From a virus, in IMG/VR virus record IMGVR_UViG_3300042868_003035, positions 1-43,153 of that record: a stretch of 43,153 nucleotides of DNA. The stretch is one strand, 5' to 3'. Position numbers and translations under genes: made by a program. Of this stretch, positions 27,759 to 35,656 are shown piece after piece (the stretch's first letter is position 1; each line of letters begins with the position of its first letter). Below the pieces are notes generated by a model. It saw only the letters and a list, made by a program, of their open reading frames with translations, made no database searches and was not told where the DNA came from.

Positions 27759-28448
27759 ATGTCTAAAGCAGAAATAGCACAGGGCGCAGTCAATGCAATC
27801 ATGGGCATCAGTAAAGGCATTATTGCCGATGCGGAAATAAGCGCCTCCAATCAGGTTAGCCAAGCCAACGCTTACGCCAGTAACTTGATGCGTGCTGCTA
27901 ACAATGAGCTACGGGCTTCTCGCAGTAGCTTAGCTAGATTGACCCAGAGCATAAATAATCAGCGGGTGCTAGAGAACTCTACCGGCGCTGCTGAGGCCGC
28001 GCTCATTAACTATCGGCGAACCAAAGACAGTATGGCTAACGATAGCCTCGATAAGCAAATCGCCTTTGCCGAACAGGCTGGGGCGCAGGCTGCGGCAGGC
28101 GCACTATCGGGATTAACGGGCGGTGTAGTTGATATTGTTAAAGGAACCACGGCCTTGCGTAAAGCTAGGATCGAGCAGCGTATTAAAGACGCAGGCGCTG
28201 GGTTAGACTATGACGCGGCTCAGCGCAACAAGAATCTAATCCGTGCCGGGTGGGACGCTGTGGACTATAGCGAGATAAGTGATGACTTAGATAAGTCGCT
28301 AGATGTTGCTGTTACCCGCATTAGGGGTGGCAATGTGCTTAGCGACATTATGGGCGGGCAAGACTCGCAGACCCTCTCAAACCTCAGCAGCTCTTTCTTT
28401 AAGCCGAATAGACCAAACAAGTCTTCGGTAGATATAGGTACACCGTAA
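27759..28448 (+). CDS. Internal virion (ejection) protein, gp14-like
   Basis: A 229-residue, largely helical, Ala-rich protein (ANAYASNLMRAANNELRASR), in the place and size range of T7 gp14 (196). In T7 this protein is ejected first and forms the outer-membrane part of the DNA-translocation channel. The stop overlaps the next ATG (TAATG), so synthesis of the ejection proteins is coupled. Confidence 0.85.
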   Translation: MSKAEIAQGAVNAIMGISKGIIADAEISASNQVSQANAYASNLMRAANNELRASRSSLARLTQSINNQRVLENSTGAAEAALINYRRTKDSMANDSLDKQIAFAEQAGAQAAAGALSGLTGGVVDIVKGTTALRKARIEQRIKDAGAGLDYDAAQRNKNLIRAGWDAVDYSEISDDLDKSLDVAVTRIRGGNVLSDIMGGQDSQTLSNLSSSFFKPNRPNKSSVDIGTP

Positions 28449-30682
28449 TGCAACCAGATAACACACTAGGGGCACCCACTGAGGGCCTCGGGCAGAAGGT
28501 CACTTTTGCTGCTGGCGGTTCGCAGGGCCTCTCGCAGGCGGCAGGGCCGAACAGGCAGGCCATACGGGCCGATAACCGTGGTGGGCAGGCCACCCTATCA
28601 AGTCGCGCTTTGCAAGTCCCAGACGCCCCAATAGGCGGCACCATGCAGGCTTTGCTGAAGCTGGGTGGCACGGCTGTTAAGGCGGCTGTAGAAGAAGAGC
28701 GCACTCAGGCGTATGTCCGGGGCTGGCAGCGTGCCGCCCAAGGCGAGGCCGTTGCGGAGATTGTAGACGAGCAGCCATGGTACTCCAAACTCTTCGGGGC
28801 TACTAATCTGGTTGACGGTGCCAGAGCTTACACGGCTAATGCTAGAGCTAACGCTATAGTGGCTGGCTTAGAGAACGATATGGAGAGTCTGCGTAAGCTG
28901 GGGCCTGACGAAATCGGTAGACACGTTGCGGGTATTATGTCAAAGACTCAGACAGGCGACTCTACTACAGACCTGCTGGTTCAAAAGCAACTAGGTGCTG
29001 CTGTGCCCTCGTTTCTCAAAGTGCAGGCAAAGGCTAACTTGAAATACAACCAAGAGCGCTTTGAGGATAGCATGGCTGCTAGCCACGAGGCAGGCTTTGC
29101 ATCGCTAGGCGCTGTGTCTTTAGCCGCTAGGCAAGGCGGGGTTACGGATGGCATGGATGTGCTGGTCAATCAGCTTAGGCTGAAAGACAATCTGCTCCCG
29201 CCGCCCGACATGGATCAGAAGCACTTTAATAAAATCCTAGCTAGATCAGCCGTTAAGTCAATCTTGGGCGGTAATCTGGATACGGCAGGCTTCTTAGAGA
29301 ATTCCGGGATTATCGGCTCTCTCGATCCGTCAGAGCAAGTGACTGTAAGGGAAGCGACAGCACGTGCACGTAGGGAAGCACAGCTTAGGCTACCGGCAGA
29401 GTTTGCCGATGACTTAGCTCAACTGACTAGGGCAGGTAATGACGGCTCTAGCTTAGAGAGCCTGAAGGCCAAAGCGGCTGCTTTCAATGAGAAGTATAAA
29501 CGCCATACTGGCGACTACCAAGACTATTTCTCTACGGCTAATCTTGCTACTGAGATTAACCAATGGCATGCTAATCAAGACCGAGATAGAGAGCGTACAC
29601 GCAAGGCCATTGATGCGGCAGACAATAAAGCTGCTAAAGAGATAGCCGCGTTTGACCATCAGATGAACATAGCCGCTAAGATGCGCCACGGGTCTTACGT
29701 TAATGACGAACCTGCGGATGTTAAGCTCATGGCATGGGCAGAAGTGGCCCGCGGTGCTGATCCTGATACACTAGCGCGTACTCGATTCGTGCAAGCTAGC
29801 TTAGGTAACTTTGACAAGGCGTTTGCCGATAAATTGCAGAGCCAGATATCAATAGCAGCAGGGCCGGAGTTTAAGACTAGCGATAACAAGACTCCGGGAA
29901 ACCCACTCGCTCTCTATGAGGCATACCAAGCGTATGATAAACTTGTTCGTAATGGTAGTATGCCCATAGCCCAAGCCTACGCTGGCGAGGGCGCAAGGCT
30001 CATGAGCGCTTACAGCAAACTGGCTGTCGGGCAAGAAGCTACGCCGGACAATCTGGCTATCTGGTATCATAGGGCTGTTACAGAAAGCCTAGCCCCTAGG
30101 CCTGCGCTAACTGACAAAGAAGAAAAGCAGATCGTAAAAGATTTGACCGAATCGATACCCGACTGGGTTCCATTCAGGCCTGACAGCTTTAGGACAAAGA
30201 ACCCCGAGGCTCTGGCTAGACTAATCTCCCCCTTCATCGACAAGACTGGGGCGGGTGATACTACCGAAGCAGCTAAACAGCAAGCGCTTAAGGGTCGTAA
30301 AATCGATGGCCTCGCTGGCTGGTACTGGCCCTTGTTACCCGGCGTTTCTGACTTTAGGCAAGCGCTCGCTAAGCCTGATGGAAACGTTATCAAAGTTAGC
30401 AGTGGCGAGCACAACCAAGCCTTTAACTTTGCGGTAGACCAGTACGCCGCTAAAGTTGGGATCAGTACAGTATCTGCCGTGGGGCAGTTTAATGATAACG
30501 CCAAAGGCGAGCCACAAGTCTACGTCATGGGCACTGACAGTAACGGTAACGTAAAGACTACCTTTATGACAGCAAGCGAAGTGCGAGACGCTTGGCATCT
30601 GCGTAATCCTCAACTTCCGACTACGGTCAAAGTGCCAGCACTCGACCCAACACAGCGCCCACTAATTAAATCTAGGAATTAA
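28448..30682 (+). CDS. Internal virion (ejection) protein, gp15-like
   Basis: A 744-residue, mainly helical protein corresponding in position and size to T7 gp15 (747), which spans the periplasm during DNA ejection. Its N-terminal 60 residues are Gly/Gln-rich and probably disordered; long Ala/Lys/Glu helices follow. No enzymatic motif is seen. It ends directly before the gp16-like gene. Confidence 0.88.
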   Translation: MQPDNTLGAPTEGLGQKVTFAAGGSQGLSQAAGPNRQAIRADNRGGQATLSSRALQVPDAPIGGTMQALLKLGGTAVKAAVEEERTQAYVRGWQRAAQGEAVAEIVDEQPWYSKLFGATNLVDGARAYTANARANAIVAGLENDMESLRKLGPDEIGRHVAGIMSKTQTGDSTTDLLVQKQLGAAVPSFLKVQAKANLKYNQERFEDSMAASHEAGFASLGAVSLAARQGGVTDGMDVLVNQLRLKDNLLPPPDMDQKHFNKILARSAVKSILGGNLDTAGFLENSGIIGSLDPSEQVTVREATARARREAQLRLPAEFADDLAQLTRAGNDGSSLESLKAKAAAFNEKYKRHTGDYQDYFSTANLATEINQWHANQDRDRERTRKAIDAADNKAAKEIAAFDHQMNIAAKMRHGSYVNDEPADVKLMAWAEVARGADPDTLARTRFVQASLGNFDKAFADKLQSQISIAAGPEFKTSDNKTPGNPLALYEAYQAYDKLVRNGSMPIAQAYAGEGARLMSAYSKLAVGQEATPDNLAIWYHRAVTESLAPRPALTDKEEKQIVKDLTESIPDWVPFRPDSFRTKNPEALARLISPFIDKTGAGDTTEAAKQQALKGRKIDGLAGWYWPLLPGVSDFRQALAKPDGNVIKVSSGEHNQAFNFAVDQYAAKVGISTVSAVGQFNDNAKGEPQVYVMGTDSNGNVKTTFMTASEVRDAWHLRNPQLPTTVKVPALDPTQRPLIKSRN

Positions 30683-33600
30683 ATGAGTAAAGAAGCATTC
30701 TTTGAACAGTATCGCCCTCTGGCGGCTAACGTGGCTAAGGAGCTAAATGTGCCAGAGAGTGCTATCTTGTCTCACTGGGCAGTAGAGACAGCTTACGGCA
30801 AGTCTATCATACCCGGCACTAACAATCTGGGTAACATCAAAGACGTGAGTGCGGCTGGCACTGGGGTTGCTGCCGTGGACAACGAGACAAAGACTACAGA
30901 TCGCTACCGTAAATACGCTGACTTCAATGCTAGCGCAGCAGACTACGCCGACCTGATTAAGCGTAAGCATCCGGGGGCCATGAATCAGACCTCAGCGCAA
31001 GGCTTTGCTGAAGCGCTTAAGAAGTCGGGATACTTTGAGAGCGATTACGGAGTGGCTAATATCACCAAGGTTGCTGGAGAGAAGTACACGCCATCCGACC
31101 CAAGGCTGGCTGAAGCCCGTAATGCTACGGCAGCGCTGAGGGCAAGCATTGCTAAGCCACTGGCTGCGTCTGAGGATACAGCTAGGCTCGACCTACGCAT
31201 GCGGCAAGCGAGAGAAGACAAAGCGCTGCTTGAAGAGAATGCACCCAGCTTGCTTACTTCAGCAGCCGCAGCTATGGTGGGTAACACAGACTTCCAGATA
31301 GGCGGTGCCATCAAGGAAATGATCTGGGGGCCAAAGCATCAGCCAGAGCCGGGGTTTGTTCCCGACATGGCGTTGCTCCAAAAGGAGACTAACAACGGGG
31401 CTGACCGTGATCTGATCGACGATTACGCCAAAGCTAAAAGCAAGGCCGAGGCTGCTGAAATTCTTGCTAAGTGGGAGGAAGAGAACTTCCGGCTAAAGAC
31501 TGTAATGGCTAATGGCAAGGTAGCAGGCTTAGCCCTAAGCTTTGCCGCTGAGCTACCCACGTTCTCCAACCTAATCCCTGCGGTAGCCGCTGCCAAGACT
31601 ATGCGGATGTTTGGTAAGGGCAGTGAGACTTTGGCAGCATCGGGCGCAGGCTTTGGCACAGTTGCGAAGTCGGCTATCACTGAAAACGTTCTGGGCGGTA
31701 CGGCTGTAGAAGCCCTACGACAGGGCCTTACAGGCGATTACAGCCTCTTGGATTTGGGGCTGAGCGTCACAGTAGACACGGTGTTTGGACTAGGCGTAGC
31801 GGGGCTACAAATTCGTGGCAGGGCACCCGGCCTCGACATTAACGAAGCTACTGGGCAGGCAGTACGGCGCGAAGTCGAGTATGCTGCAAAGGCTGAGCAA
31901 GAGCTAGGGGGCGGAGCTACCGCCACTGAGCTACGCAAGACCATGGATCGTATGTTCAAAGAGGACATCGACGCACCTAACAAGGCGCTTGGTGAGGACA
32001 TAGCCCCAGAGCGTAAGCTAGATGGTGAAAATGCTGCAGCGTTAGAACAGCAGGCCGTACGAGTTTACCACGGTGGTATTGATGCTGGTCAAACGGGGCC
32101 GCTGTGGTTTACTACTAGCCAGCAAAACGCTGAAGGCTGGGCACGCAAAGCAGGCGGGTCAGTATTTTATGTAGACCTTCCACCTAATCACCCTTCACTT
32201 AAAACAGATAAGGAATTTGGCGTTCTGCCCCCACCCAACTTTGAACTTAGCGCAGAATGGGCAAACAAACGCAGACTCTTATCAACTGAGTTATCAACTG
32301 AGGATAGTTCTAGCGGAAATCTGAGAGCTTTTTCGGAATCGGTTGCGCGTGCTAAGACTCGCGCTAACTTTGGCGAGCCGGGGTCGTTGCAAGCAAGAGA
32401 GGACTTGTTCAGGCCCGGTGCAGTATCTGAAAAAGAAATCAGTACCTACACGGGCGGTAAGCTTACGACACTCGACGAGCTTAACGCGCTGCCTTCTGGC
32501 GTGCATTTTATGGGCAAGCAGGATGACACCATTAAGCCTGCGGTAGACACAGCGATGCGTCTAGCACAGCGGTTCCTTGGCAACGACTTTCGTATTACCG
32601 TAGCTAGCTCGAAGATTCCGACTACCAAAGAAGACGGTACTACCGTCTTCGCTAACGCCGCTATCATGCAGGTCAGTGAACGCGCAGCAATGATCCGAGT
32701 ATCCCCTGAGTTGCCGCCTGCACAGAAGGTGCGTAGCATAGTTCACGAAATCGGGCACGCTATCTTCAATAGGGAGATTGGTAACGTTGACGGTGAGCAA
32801 CTGCTAGCCTTACAGAAAGCGTTTCGTAACTTCCTTACCGAAACTGATGGGGCAGCGCAGAGGGCTAAACGCTACAGCGTTACTAACGTTGACCAAATGC
32901 CGGATGTGGCAAACCCACCGCTGCTCACTACACAGTATCAGCGTAGCTGGGACGAGTTTAGTGCTGAGCAATTTGTTAAGTATATTGAGGCTGACGTTAG
33001 AAAGAACAACTCGCTTGGGCTTACTAGGCAGACGGTGCTGCTGCTACAGCAAGCTATAAGCAAAGCGCTTCAGTTCTTGCGCCTAGCAAAGCGAGAAGCT
33101 ATAGGCGTAACGGACGAGTACAAGGCTTTCTTTGACTCAATCGTAGCAGACATTATCGAGCCAGCTAGGCCCACTCTGACGCTCAAGCCTTCCGGCCCGG
33201 CGCAAGAGCAGCTTAGCCGAGCGACCGCAACTGACGTGGTAAACGAGATTCAGACCGATCCCGATGCCGTCAAGTACGGCCTGACTATAGCGCCCATCAA
33301 CACACCCGCTGAGCGCAAACAAGCGCAGGCCATGCTGGCCTTGCACAAGCAAGCAGAAGCATGGGCGATTAAGAACCCAAAGGACGCTAACTGGGATAAG
33401 AGAGCGCAGAACCTAACAGATAACCGCGTATTCAACGTGGCCTCTGTGGGCTTGACGATGCTCAAATCCGAGAGCCCCTTGGTTCGCATGATTGCTAGTC
33501 AACTAGTTGAGGACGCTAGCGGAGTAAGCGGTAAGCATGTAGCCACAGCTTCGATTAACAAAGAGTTGATAAACCAGAAGCTGATGGGTAACGTTGTGCT

Positions 33601-35656
33601 AGACATTGAGGGGGCTTACGGCTTCTGGTCTAGCCAGCACGGCGGTAGCATCAGAGACGATCTGATAGGCGGCACGAAGCGCAAAGAATTTGACAACTTA
33701 GTAGCTGCTGAGATTGAGGCACGGCTACGTACCAATGAAGCAGTTACGCGGGACGCCAATGTGAAAGCTGCGGCTGATTCTATAGAATCAGCCTATCAGC
33801 GCATGGCTAATGCGCAGCGCTCAGCAGATACTCTAGGTGCAGGCGGTTTGCCTGACTCTAGCCGTGGGTATATGCCACACAAAATGAGCGCAAAGGCTGT
33901 GCTCAATTTGACTAACGAGCAGAGCCGGATACTTCATAGCGCATTGACTGACCAGTTCGTAGGCTTGGGGTGGGATACAACCATGGCCGATAAGGTAGCT
34001 TCGCAGTATATGAAGCGAGTACGGGATCGGGCTAGCGGCGATTACGGCAGTGCTATCGGCGGTAGGCGCGACTCTGAGAGTCTGGTTGAAGAAGCTCTGC
34101 GCTCTATGGAACTGCCTGATGACGTTATCAAAGCGCACATGGCAAAGTACAATAAGGGCGGGGCTAGCTTCACTAAGAAGCGCATTGACCTAGACCTAAA
34201 CCGAGTATACGACACGCCAACTGGGCCATTCAAACTGCTCGACATATTCGAGACTAATCACATCGAACTACTACGTTCACAGGCGGGTAGGGTTAGCGGT
34301 GAAGTCGCACTAACCCAGTGGGGCGTCCGGGGCAAGCCGGGCCTTAAGTTGCTGCGAGACGCCATGGAGTTTGGCGAAGACGGCAAACGGGCTAGCATCG
34401 CTGACAAAGAAGCCTTCGATCAGATGGCAGCAGAGTTCATGAACGAGCCGTTTGGCACACAAGCGGGTAAGTTCATGCAGCGAGCTATGGGCGCTAATAG
34501 CCTTGTTCGGCTGGGTGGTCTAGTCTACTCGCAGATATCAGAGACGCTTAACGGTATTGCTAGCTTAGGAGTTGTGCGAGCAGCTTTGTCGGTAGCCGCT
34601 GTACCTCGTCTGCACGGCGAGATTAAAGCGCTAGTGCGTGGCGAAAAGGTGGACAACCCGTTTCTGACTAGCATTGAGTTAGCAGGTGGCGCTGAGTTTG
34701 GTACTAAGGAGTACAAGCTTGTCCTCCCTTACGATGATCCTAGCAGCCAGTACCCAACCTACGGGCAAGACACACTTACACTAACTGATCGGCTAATTCG
34801 TGGCGGTGGGCATCTACAGTCTAAGCTTAGCGGCTGGCGCTATGTGCATAGTGCCCAGCAGCGAGGCATGGCTGAGCAAATCGTTCAGAAAATCTTAAAG
34901 TACGTTAAGGACGGCAAGGAAGACGTTGCTTTGCAACAGTTCGGCATAACACCTGAACTAAGGGCACAGATCAGTGCTGACCTTAACAAGATCGCTACCT
35001 TCGATGGTTCGGGCAATCTGCTCAGCCTAGATGTCACTAAGATGACAGACCCTGACCAGCGCACCGCTTTGATACAAGCCGTATGGCGTGGCACAAACCA
35101 GATCATCCAAGGCACTTATATCGGTGAACGCGGCAAGTGGGCGCATGACGGCTGGCTACAGCTACTCACGCAGTTCCGTACCTTCTCGTTAGTCTCTATG
35201 GAGAAGCAGTGGGGGAGGCAGCGCAATAGCCGTGGCGTAGTTGGTGCTGGCGGCATTATCCTAGGCAGCATGGCTATGGCAGTCCCTATCCACATGGCGA
35301 GGGTATACGCTAGTAGCATAGGCCGACCAGACCAAGACGAGTACATTGACGACAGACTTCAGCCGCAGCACGTGGCTAGGGCCGTTATGAACTACGTTGG
35401 AACGGTTGGCTTAGCAGGCGACTTTGTTGATCTGCTTACCGCACCGTTACCAGAAGACTCGGGTATAAAGCCAACAGGCGGTAGGGCCGGTGTAGAGAGT
35501 AGCTTTGTAGGTAACTACGTGCTACCCGCTTCGAGTCTTGTGGACGACATGTGGAAGTATATCCAAAGCCCAACAGAACTAGACGATGCGGTTAAAGCCG
35601 CGCCGCTTAGCCGACTGCCTTACTTAGTACCGTTCTTTAATACGCTTAAGGACTAA
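30683..35656 (+). CDS. Giant ejection protein, gp16-like, with glucosaminidase, possible ART-like and zinc-protease segments
   Basis: A 1657-residue protein in the T7 gp16 position. The N-terminal 150 residues resemble a glucosaminidase-type peptidoglycan hydrolase (catalytic E35 in HWAVETAYGKS, then NNLGNIK and YRKYADFNASAADYADL), whereas T7 gp16 uses a lytic transglycosylase. Residues about 461-510 (VYHGG...LWFTTSQQNAEGWA...VFYVDL) resemble an ADP-ribosyltransferase fold. H688-E-I-G-H692 with E758/E762 (WDEFSAEQFV) forms a gluzincin-like zinc-protease signature. The remaining ~850 residues are long helices like the channel-forming part of gp16. If ejected, these domains would act in the host envelope or cytoplasm. 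Confidence 0.88.
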   Translation: MSKEAFFEQYRPLAANVAKELNVPESAILSHWAVETAYGKSIIPGTNNLGNIKDVSAAGTGVAAVDNETKTTDRYRKYADFNASAADYADLIKRKHPGAMNQTSAQGFAEALKKSGYFESDYGVANITKVAGEKYTPSDPRLAEARNATAALRASIAKPLAASEDTARLDLRMRQAREDKALLEENAPSLLTSAAAAMVGNTDFQIGGAIKEMIWGPKHQPEPGFVPDMALLQKETNNGADRDLIDDYAKAKSKAEAAEILAKWEEENFRLKTVMANGKVAGLALSFAAELPTFSNLIPAVAAAKTMRMFGKGSETLAASGAGFGTVAKSAITENVLGGTAVEALRQGLTGDYSLLDLGLSVTVDTVFGLGVAGLQIRGRAPGLDINEATGQAVRREVEYAAKAEQELGGGATATELRKTMDRMFKEDIDAPNKALGEDIAPERKLDGENAAALEQQAVRVYHGGIDAGQTGPLWFTTSQQNAEGWARKAGGSVFYVDLPPNHPSLKTDKEFGVLPPPNFELSAEWANKRRLLSTELSTEDSSSGNLRAFSESVARAKTRANFGEPGSLQAREDLFRPGAVSEKEISTYTGGKLTTLDELNALPSGVHFMGKQDDTIKPAVDTAMRLAQRFLGNDFRITVASSKIPTTKEDGTTVFANAAIMQVSERAAMIRVSPELPPAQKVRSIVHEIGHAIFNREIGNVDGEQLLALQKAFRNFLTETDGAAQRAKRYSVTNVDQMPDVANPPLLTTQYQRSWDEFSAEQFVKYIEADVRKNNSLGLTRQTVLLLQQAISKALQFLRLAKREAIGVTDEYKAFFDSIVADIIEPARPTLTLKPSGPAQEQLSRATATDVVNEIQTDPDAVKYGLTIAPINTPAERKQAQAMLALHKQAEAWAIKNPKDANWDKRAQNLTDNRVFNVASVGLTMLKSESPLVRMIASQLVEDASGVSGKHVATASINKELINQKLMGNVVLDIEGAYGFWSSQHGGSIRDDLIGGTKRKEFDNLVAAEIEARLRTNEAVTRDANVKAAADSIESAYQRMANAQRSADTLGAGGLPDSSRGYMPHKMSAKAVLNLTNEQSRILHSALTDQFVGLGWDTTMADKVASQYMKRVRDRASGDYGSAIGGRRDSESLVEEALRSMELPDDVIKAHMAKYNKGGASFTKKRIDLDLNRVYDTPTGPFKLLDIFETNHIELLRSQAGRVSGEVALTQWGVRGKPGLKLLRDAMEFGEDGKRASIADKEAFDQMAAEFMNEPFGTQAGKFMQRAMGANSLVRLGGLVYSQISETLNGIASLGVVRAALSVAAVPRLHGEIKALVRGEKVDNPFLTSIELAGGAEFGTKEYKLVLPYDDPSSQYPTYGQDTLTLTDRLIRGGGHLQSKLSGWRYVHSAQQRGMAEQIVQKILKYVKDGKEDVALQQFGITPELRAQISADLNKIATFDGSGNLLSLDVTKMTDPDQRTALIQAVWRGTNQIIQGTYIGERGKWAHDGWLQLLTQFRTFSLVSMEKQWGRQRNSRGVVGAGGIILGSMAMAVPIHMARVYASSIGRPDQDEYIDDRLQPQHVARAVMNYVGTVGLAGDFVDLLTAPLPEDSGIKPTGGRAGVESSFVGNYVLPASSLVDDMWKYIQSPTELDDAVKAAPLSRLPYLVPFFNTLKD

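Follow-up and report, generated by a model that had tools for sequence, protein, structure and literature searches.

The stretch of DNA analysed here, called the window below, comprises the 43,153 nucleotides of the IMG/VR virus record IMGVR_UViG_3300042868_003035 and comes from a phage that encodes its own RNA polymerase (phrog_414). It contains a gene for a large ejection protein, preceded by two genes for internal virion proteins, with the following features:

27759-28448, + strand: gene of an internal virion protein, gp14-like from its place in the gene order (phrog_5745, E 3e-32)
28448-30682, + strand: gene of an internal virion protein, gp15-like from its place in the gene order (phrog_3883, E 3.1e-73)
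30683-35656, + strand: gene for a gp16-like (tetrameric) ejection protein of 1657 residues (open reading frame, phrog_342 match)
30716-31048, + strand: N-terminal peptidoglycan hydrolase domain, Glucosaminidase, residues 12-122 (PF01832, E 6.2e-15; FlgJ structures by phmmer)
31820-33262, + strand: variable insert, about residues 380-860, between two conserved gp16 parts (alignment of eight gp16-like proteins)
32468-33163, + strand: predicted zincin metallopeptidase domain, about residues 596-827 (alignment A3, AlphaFold2, VIA-align)
32744-32758, + strand: HEIGH motif, residues 688-692 (sequence; invariant in 35 of 35 domains)
32936-32938, + strand: Tyr752, candidate transition-state stabiliser (invariant in 35 domains)
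32954-32956, + strand: Glu758, putative third ligand of the zinc (unchanged in all 35 type-(i) domains)
32966-32968, + strand: Glu762, putative second-shell residue or alternative ligand (invariant in type (i), varying in type (ii))
33800-35362, + strand: conserved gp16 C-terminal core, residues 1040-1560, the query for relatives (alignment A2; its profile matches the PhiM1 TEP, 8vb2_A, and T7 gp16)

Residues 8-1656 of the ejection protein are matched by phrog_342 ('internal virion protein with endolysin domain', E 2.2e-157). The protein belongs to the T7 gp16 type by homology along its length and by the position of its gene, which follows those of two internal virion proteins, and T7 gp16 is matched by a profile with the window among its members (A5, E 7e-13). 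In the alignment of eight gp16-like proteins, the insert is missing or very short in VSW-3, P14, SB3 and Kurepalu-1, and that of Curvibacter phage P26059B carries HEVGH and DEFAAEQF, corresponding to HEIGH and to WDEFSAEQF (residues 756-764) in the window. Providencia phage PSTNGR1 (HELSH) and Variovorax phage VPv81 (HELVH) contain unlike inserts, with the motif in the same place as in the window. A preliminary description, in which the stretch cited ended at residue 766, had read HEIGH together with Glu758 and Glu762 as a gluzincin-type metallopeptidase that T7 gp16 does not have.

The C-terminal core was used to scan the viral_contigs collection, and the best 80 of 126 confirmed relatives were kept and joined to eight hand-chosen sequences (the window and seven phages), giving 88 proteins; this choice is biased towards the kin of the window, and the frequency of HExxH therefore describes that kin rather than the whole family. 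The motif occurs within 650 residues upstream of the core in 51 of the 75 proteins with a readable upstream half (the other 13 of the 88 are too short upstream for judgement), compared with 0.92 of 75 expected from shuffling, so absence from all homologues is not the case. Counted per cluster at 90% core identity, 39 of 56 carry it, and in or after the core it is found in none of the 88 proteins examined, T7 not being among them. Complete loci with HExxH are longer (median 1582 residues, n=39) than those without (1317 residues, n=18). That the motif is a chance occurrence in a helical protein is an explanation of negligible probability. Single stray occurrences do happen, as in T7 gp16 (L114:3096-7052), where HERLH at residue 559 lies outside the insert site, and therefore a motif search alone would mislead; the shuffling comparison, the invariant positions of the aligned domains and the predicted fold nevertheless refute it.

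When viral_contigs was scanned with the zincin domain instead, 15 relatives were recovered, including the genome of P26059B itself and some near copies, and HExxH is present in all 15. The search patterns came from within the WDEFSAEQFVKY stretch, and these relatives were thus picked up independently of HExxH, although the tblastn confirmation used the whole domain; all 10 of the 15 that were scanned match phrog_342. A scan of viral_contigs with the whole protein gave no match, but alignments A1 and A2 did find relatives. In the phage collection, 383 records match the whole 1657-residue protein, and tblastn with the insert domain is convincing in P26059B only (E 1e-45, in two records that belong to this one phage), the remaining five of seven records having E-values of 4 or worse.

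Domains like that of the window were called type (i). Across 35 of them in alignment, six positions alone are invariant (H688, E689, H692, Y752, E758 and E762) and three more nearly so (R730, A761 and Q763), at a mean column identity of 27% and with only one pair more than 80% identical. These 35 rows had been chosen for having HExxH, and for this reason the motif columns were blanked and the search repeated. The blanked profile matches 58 of 102 proteins (47 distinct among 88 distinct sequences). HExxH is present in 56 of the 58, and the remaining two come from contigs whose sequence begins partway through the domain; all 56 assessable proteins, duplicates included, keep the motif, and thus no decayed copy was seen. 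In the same search, nine of 19 rows of a second type of domain, type (ii), were hit without HExxH in the match, only at profile positions 228-268, which are the gp16 linker after the zincin domain. Over 465 pairs of type-(i) clusters, mean identity is 29% in the domain against 52% in the core (Spearman 0.14), and for the window and locus L028 the two identities are 30% (domain) and 67% (core). This faster drop of identity in the domain is in keeping with rapid divergence, or with exchange, around an active site that stays the same.

AlphaFold2, run on the 35-row alignment, predicts a confident, protease-like fold (pLDDT 90.8, pTM 0.88) in which HExxH lies in one helix and E758 and E762 in a later one (model helix 161-178), so that a motif kept in homologues is followed by a putative third-ligand glutamate on a downstream helix. 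The best aligned structures are mostly zincins, with middling Z scores. VIA-align places first the catalytic part of the M34 lethal factor (Z 8.5, rmsd 4.5, 158 aligned residues, 12% identity), followed by PPEP-1/2/3 (about 7-7.5), ERAP1 (6.4 or less), Wss1 (5.9) and PprI (5.6), Z values of 7-8.5 being middling by the tool's own note; the endoribonuclease YbeY is also matched (Z 6.2), and some rows (lethal factor, edema factor and Certhrax residues 51-250) fall outside the catalytic part, 571-776, of rows 1-4. Foldseek found no match to the type-(i) model in the PDB reaching E 0.001, its first five rows being lethal-factor chains, SjiH and Certhrax, and then glycosyltransferases and others; in a viral structure library, a 'large polyvalent protein' comes first (E 4e-6). 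The M34 zincins and PPEP-1/2/3, the best solved structural matches, share only about 11-15% identity with the domain and are toxins or secreted enzymes, not virion parts. In M34 and PPEP enzymes, a catalytic tyrosine acts besides HExxH (the mutants Y178F and Y189F appear in the titles of structure entries). The gluzincin-type reading of HEIGH and the two glutamates is thus supported by an HExxH...E arrangement with each Glu invariant in 35 of 35 domains and by the predicted fold, structure prediction being one of the checks proposed for it.

Matches to curated families are weaker. Peptidase_M78 (PF06114, the IrrE/ImmA family, whose carriers are unrelated) reaches 22.9-24.2 bits for isolated stretches and 20.9 for the whole protein, at a cut-off of 22, and this borderline match is confined to the HExxH stretch, 36-43 residues of a model of 123 positions; 11 of the 35 type-(i) domains match it at E ≤ 1. 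A curated Pfam model of polyvalent-protein MPTases exists, and no model of that name is among the 25 families listed of the 33 that the 35 domains match at E ≤ 1. NCBIfam gave no match for the zincin domain. In a comparison of the profile with PDB chains, the best zincin has an E-value of 0.031, and two chains with lower E-values are repeat proteins matching one helix pair; a phmmer hit of the domain against the PDB was rejected as a chance match.

The second type of zincin, found at the same site in other relatives, is defined by alignment A4 (eight sequences). All eight contain HExxH, one Tyr and one Asn that do not vary, and a Glu within the pattern N-x-x-E-(F/L)-x-(A/S)-G. Profile-profile comparison connects type (i) with type (ii) across the half that contains HExxH (89 columns, 85%, E 6.2e-6), and in a joint type-(ii) alignment of 16 rows both His and the Glu of HExxH, the third Glu, one Arg and one Ala are invariant. 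The model of type (ii), with a pLDDT of 72.6 for the whole and about 84 for residues 11-200, aligns with residues 268-516 of the PhiM1 TEP (8vb2_A; Z 12.4, 20% identity) and with residues 2130-2364 of the N4 vRNAP (9pnt and 9pnr; Z 9.1 and 8.3), the rows after PhiM1 and N4 having Z 5.3 and below. Neither PhiM1 nor N4 is among the matches listed (50 VIA-align rows) for the type-(i) model of the window, an absence that carries no weight against a relationship. In BFVD, the list for the type-(ii) model is led by internal core and virion proteins from Autographiviridae such as BB8, RSB3, Ab05 and LIMElight, along with polyvalent and unnamed proteins.

Twelve phages were picked by hand, some for matching the domain, so the six of 12 with type (ii) represent no frequency, and bits are quoted since E-values in this comparison refer to 12 sequences. 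The A4 profile matches PhiM1 gp48 (L105:1401-5192; HEAAH at 385 with a downstream Glu, 46.3 bits), phiKMV gp37 (HEAVH at 423, 52.9 bits), KP34 gp48 (HELIH at 373, 21.8 bits), and Axy21, Bertil and the Pseudomonas phage KiKu (HExxH present, in KiKu as HEITH at 512; 145.9, 188.0 and 212.3 bits). SP6, K1E, LAh1, MR12 and LIMEzero give no type-(ii) match (at most 1.4 bits), and T7, SP6 and K1E have no significant match to either zincin profile, in agreement with what had been said of T7 gp16. The PhiM1 domain, Asp268-Asp528, was assigned by its authors as endolysin/exotransglycosidase-like from BLASTP and DALI (PMC11440229). The present comparisons favour a zincin over that assignment; the likeness is to type (ii), and the domain of the window is type (i).

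The distribution of both types was followed on a quick IQ-TREE tree of 56 core sequences, one per cluster, of which 31 are labelled type (i), eight type (ii) and 17 none. The starred branches force at least four changes for type (i), five for type (ii) and two for none, and the three labels together need seven changes on the tree against 21.6 in shuffles, although type (ii) taken alone shows hardly more clustering than shuffled labels do (24 of 500 are as low), the deep branches are weak, and VPv81 and SB3 are long. PSTNGR1 and loci L083/L084, all type (ii), sit among zincin-less relatives, and L048, L049, L052 and L058, also type (ii), among type-(i) relatives. The labels are partly circular, since most rows are in the profiles (P26059B as locus L031, PSTNGR1 via its near copy L078), but their separation is wide, type-(i) proteins scoring 173-239 bits with A3 and at most 21.3 with A4; VPv81, which is in neither profile, reaches only 18.4 bits with A4 against 6.7 with A3. 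On the gp16 tree, each zincin type is seen to substitute for the other. With 17 of 56 clusters having no domain, and no significant match in T7, SP6 or K1E, the domain is dispensable for the tunnel.

Other modules are found at the same site. In one gp16-like chain (L061:3-4991), ART-PolyVal (E 1.1e-20) is combined with a type-(i) zincin. ART-PolyVal (PF18760) also occurs in L029, just upstream of the zincin (E 2.9e-21), and L028 has the same layout minus an ART-PolyVal block of about 200 residues, with cores 91% identical; the difference is a gain or loss at one junction. The zincin is a frequent, exchangeable module and no peculiarity of the window phage.

It is likely, in our judgement, that residues from about 596 to about 827 form a gluzincin-like metallopeptidase domain that is packaged in the virion and acts only after delivery. 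Such a domain would sit, together with other cargo that can be exchanged, between a wall-cutting N-terminal part and a tunnel-building C-terminal part; zinc would be held by H688, H692 and E758, water activated by E689, and Y752 and E762 may assist. The zincin would be packaged with the ejection protein, exit the capsid with it and cut proteins only once delivered to the envelope or cytoplasm. Delivery into the host is proposed because of the homology to the T7 and PhiM1 ejection proteins, and zincin-carrying T7-like phages probably inject a protease-type domain, as far as sequence can tell. We prefer the view that the domain acts once it has been ejected, either on host proteins or on the ejectosome. 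Host proteins of the envelope or cytoplasm are the leading, if tentative, candidate target, and the neighbouring ART modules and the loose coupling to core evolution lean towards them. Cleavage of the ejection proteins themselves, which would rearrange or dismantle the tunnel or release cargo, appears rather unlikely, and processing inside the virion very unlikely. A cargo bay in the tetrameric ejection protein of T7/phiKMV-type phages, in front of the tunnel core, can be pictured, with some reserve, in which zincins and ARTs, the 'endolysin-like' domain of PhiM1 included, would be swapped, and from which the few proteases of each virion may cut host proteins early.

Two other readings have to be weighed against a delivered protease. 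The zincin could cut its own polypeptide or partner ejection proteins, in the virion or during assembly or removal of the tunnel, as autoprocessing has been proposed for the zincins of polyvalent proteins, with P1 DdrB a cleaved example (Iyer et al., PMC5512222), and its position between two functional halves would suit a cut that parts the wall hydrolase from the tunnel core. This is rather doubtful, since in the mature PhiM1 particle 1103 of the 1263 residues of the TEP are in the structure with the homologous domain in place, the N4 vRNAP is packaged unprocessed (PMC5512222), and the domain is missing from 17 of 56 relatives. The PhiM1 chain and the unprocessed N4 vRNAP also disfavour a maturation cut, so cleavage of other ejection proteins during maturation, one of the roles first suggested, appears less likely by analogy.

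The fold could also serve without proteolysis, as a structural spacer, as an ejectosome part that contacts DNA or acts on peptidoglycan, or as a non-peptidase HExxH enzyme. The loops of the PhiM1 domain, read by its authors as endolysin/exotransglycosidase-like, are placed by them near the packaged DNA (PMC11440229), HExxH also occurs in radical-SAM enzymes according to an N4 preprint (PMC12633501), and the structural Z scores are middling and include the non-peptidase YbeY. Against it stand the presence of the zincin catalytic set within the invariant positions, a motif never decayed in the proteins examined and the substitution of two unlike zincin types for each other, which argues that an activity has been kept and not a particular surface. 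We regard this explanation, and with it the absence of any proteolysis, as unlikely.

That phages inject proteins containing zincins is known in principle, from polyvalent proteins and N4. In Iyer et al. (2017, PMC5512222), zincins are the commonest polyvalent-protein domain, and self-processing or attack on the host is proposed for them. Those zincins combine HExxH with a Glu on the following helix, and they lie in giant proteins that are delivered with the DNA and also carry lysozyme and ART domains. In the window, HExxH and a helix-borne Glu likewise sit in a large multidomain protein with a wall hydrolase and, in relatives, ART-PolyVal; delivery would follow from homology to the T7 and PhiM1 ejection proteins. 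The examples of that paper include N4-like vRNAPs, P1 DdrB, ArdC and TraC1, whereas the carrier here is a tetrameric ejection protein of the T7/phiKMV kind, and the terms 'gp16', 'T7-like' and 'ejection' do not occur in its main text. The HExxH in the C1 domain of the N4 vRNAP was noted by the authors of PMC12633501, and the domain is also described in PMC8472413; it is fused to an RNA polymerase, and the structural match concerns type (ii), not the type (i) of the window. The words protease, peptidase and zinc are absent from the main text of a review on ejection proteins in which phiKMV gp37 is treated (PMC8954989). No description of a zincin in T7/phiKMV-type ejection proteins, and no account of its frequency there, was found among the papers listed in a literature search that lay mostly outside subscription journals and included PMC13340212.

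The usual picture of ejection proteins is that of a tunnel with a wall hydrolase. A conserved protease active site in phiKMV, KP34, PhiM1 and many environmental phages suggests that a common family probably injects proteases, points to a new reading for a domain in a published cryo-EM structure (8vb2; PhiM1 gp48, H385/H389), and makes a role of ejection proteins beyond the tunnel testable in laboratory strains.

Upstream of the zincin, residues 455-560 of the insert (window 32045-32362) have no detectable relative in the searches made and may be a further cargo domain. A YHGG...WFT pattern gives them the look of an ADP-ribosyltransferase; this candidate was not supported: there was no Pfam match and no tblastn match in phages at E ≤ 1, a two-member ART-PolyVal profile gave 0.3 bits and matched elsewhere, and neither BLASTP against one ART-PolyVal member nor PDB sequences supported it. 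Among the 36 inserts scanned (A6), one has a match to the GNAT acetyltransferases (PF00583, E 2.1e-6). The wall-hydrolase N-terminus is also exchanged between relatives, being a Glucosaminidase in the window and L029 and an SLT transglycosylase in L042, L044, L045 and L058.
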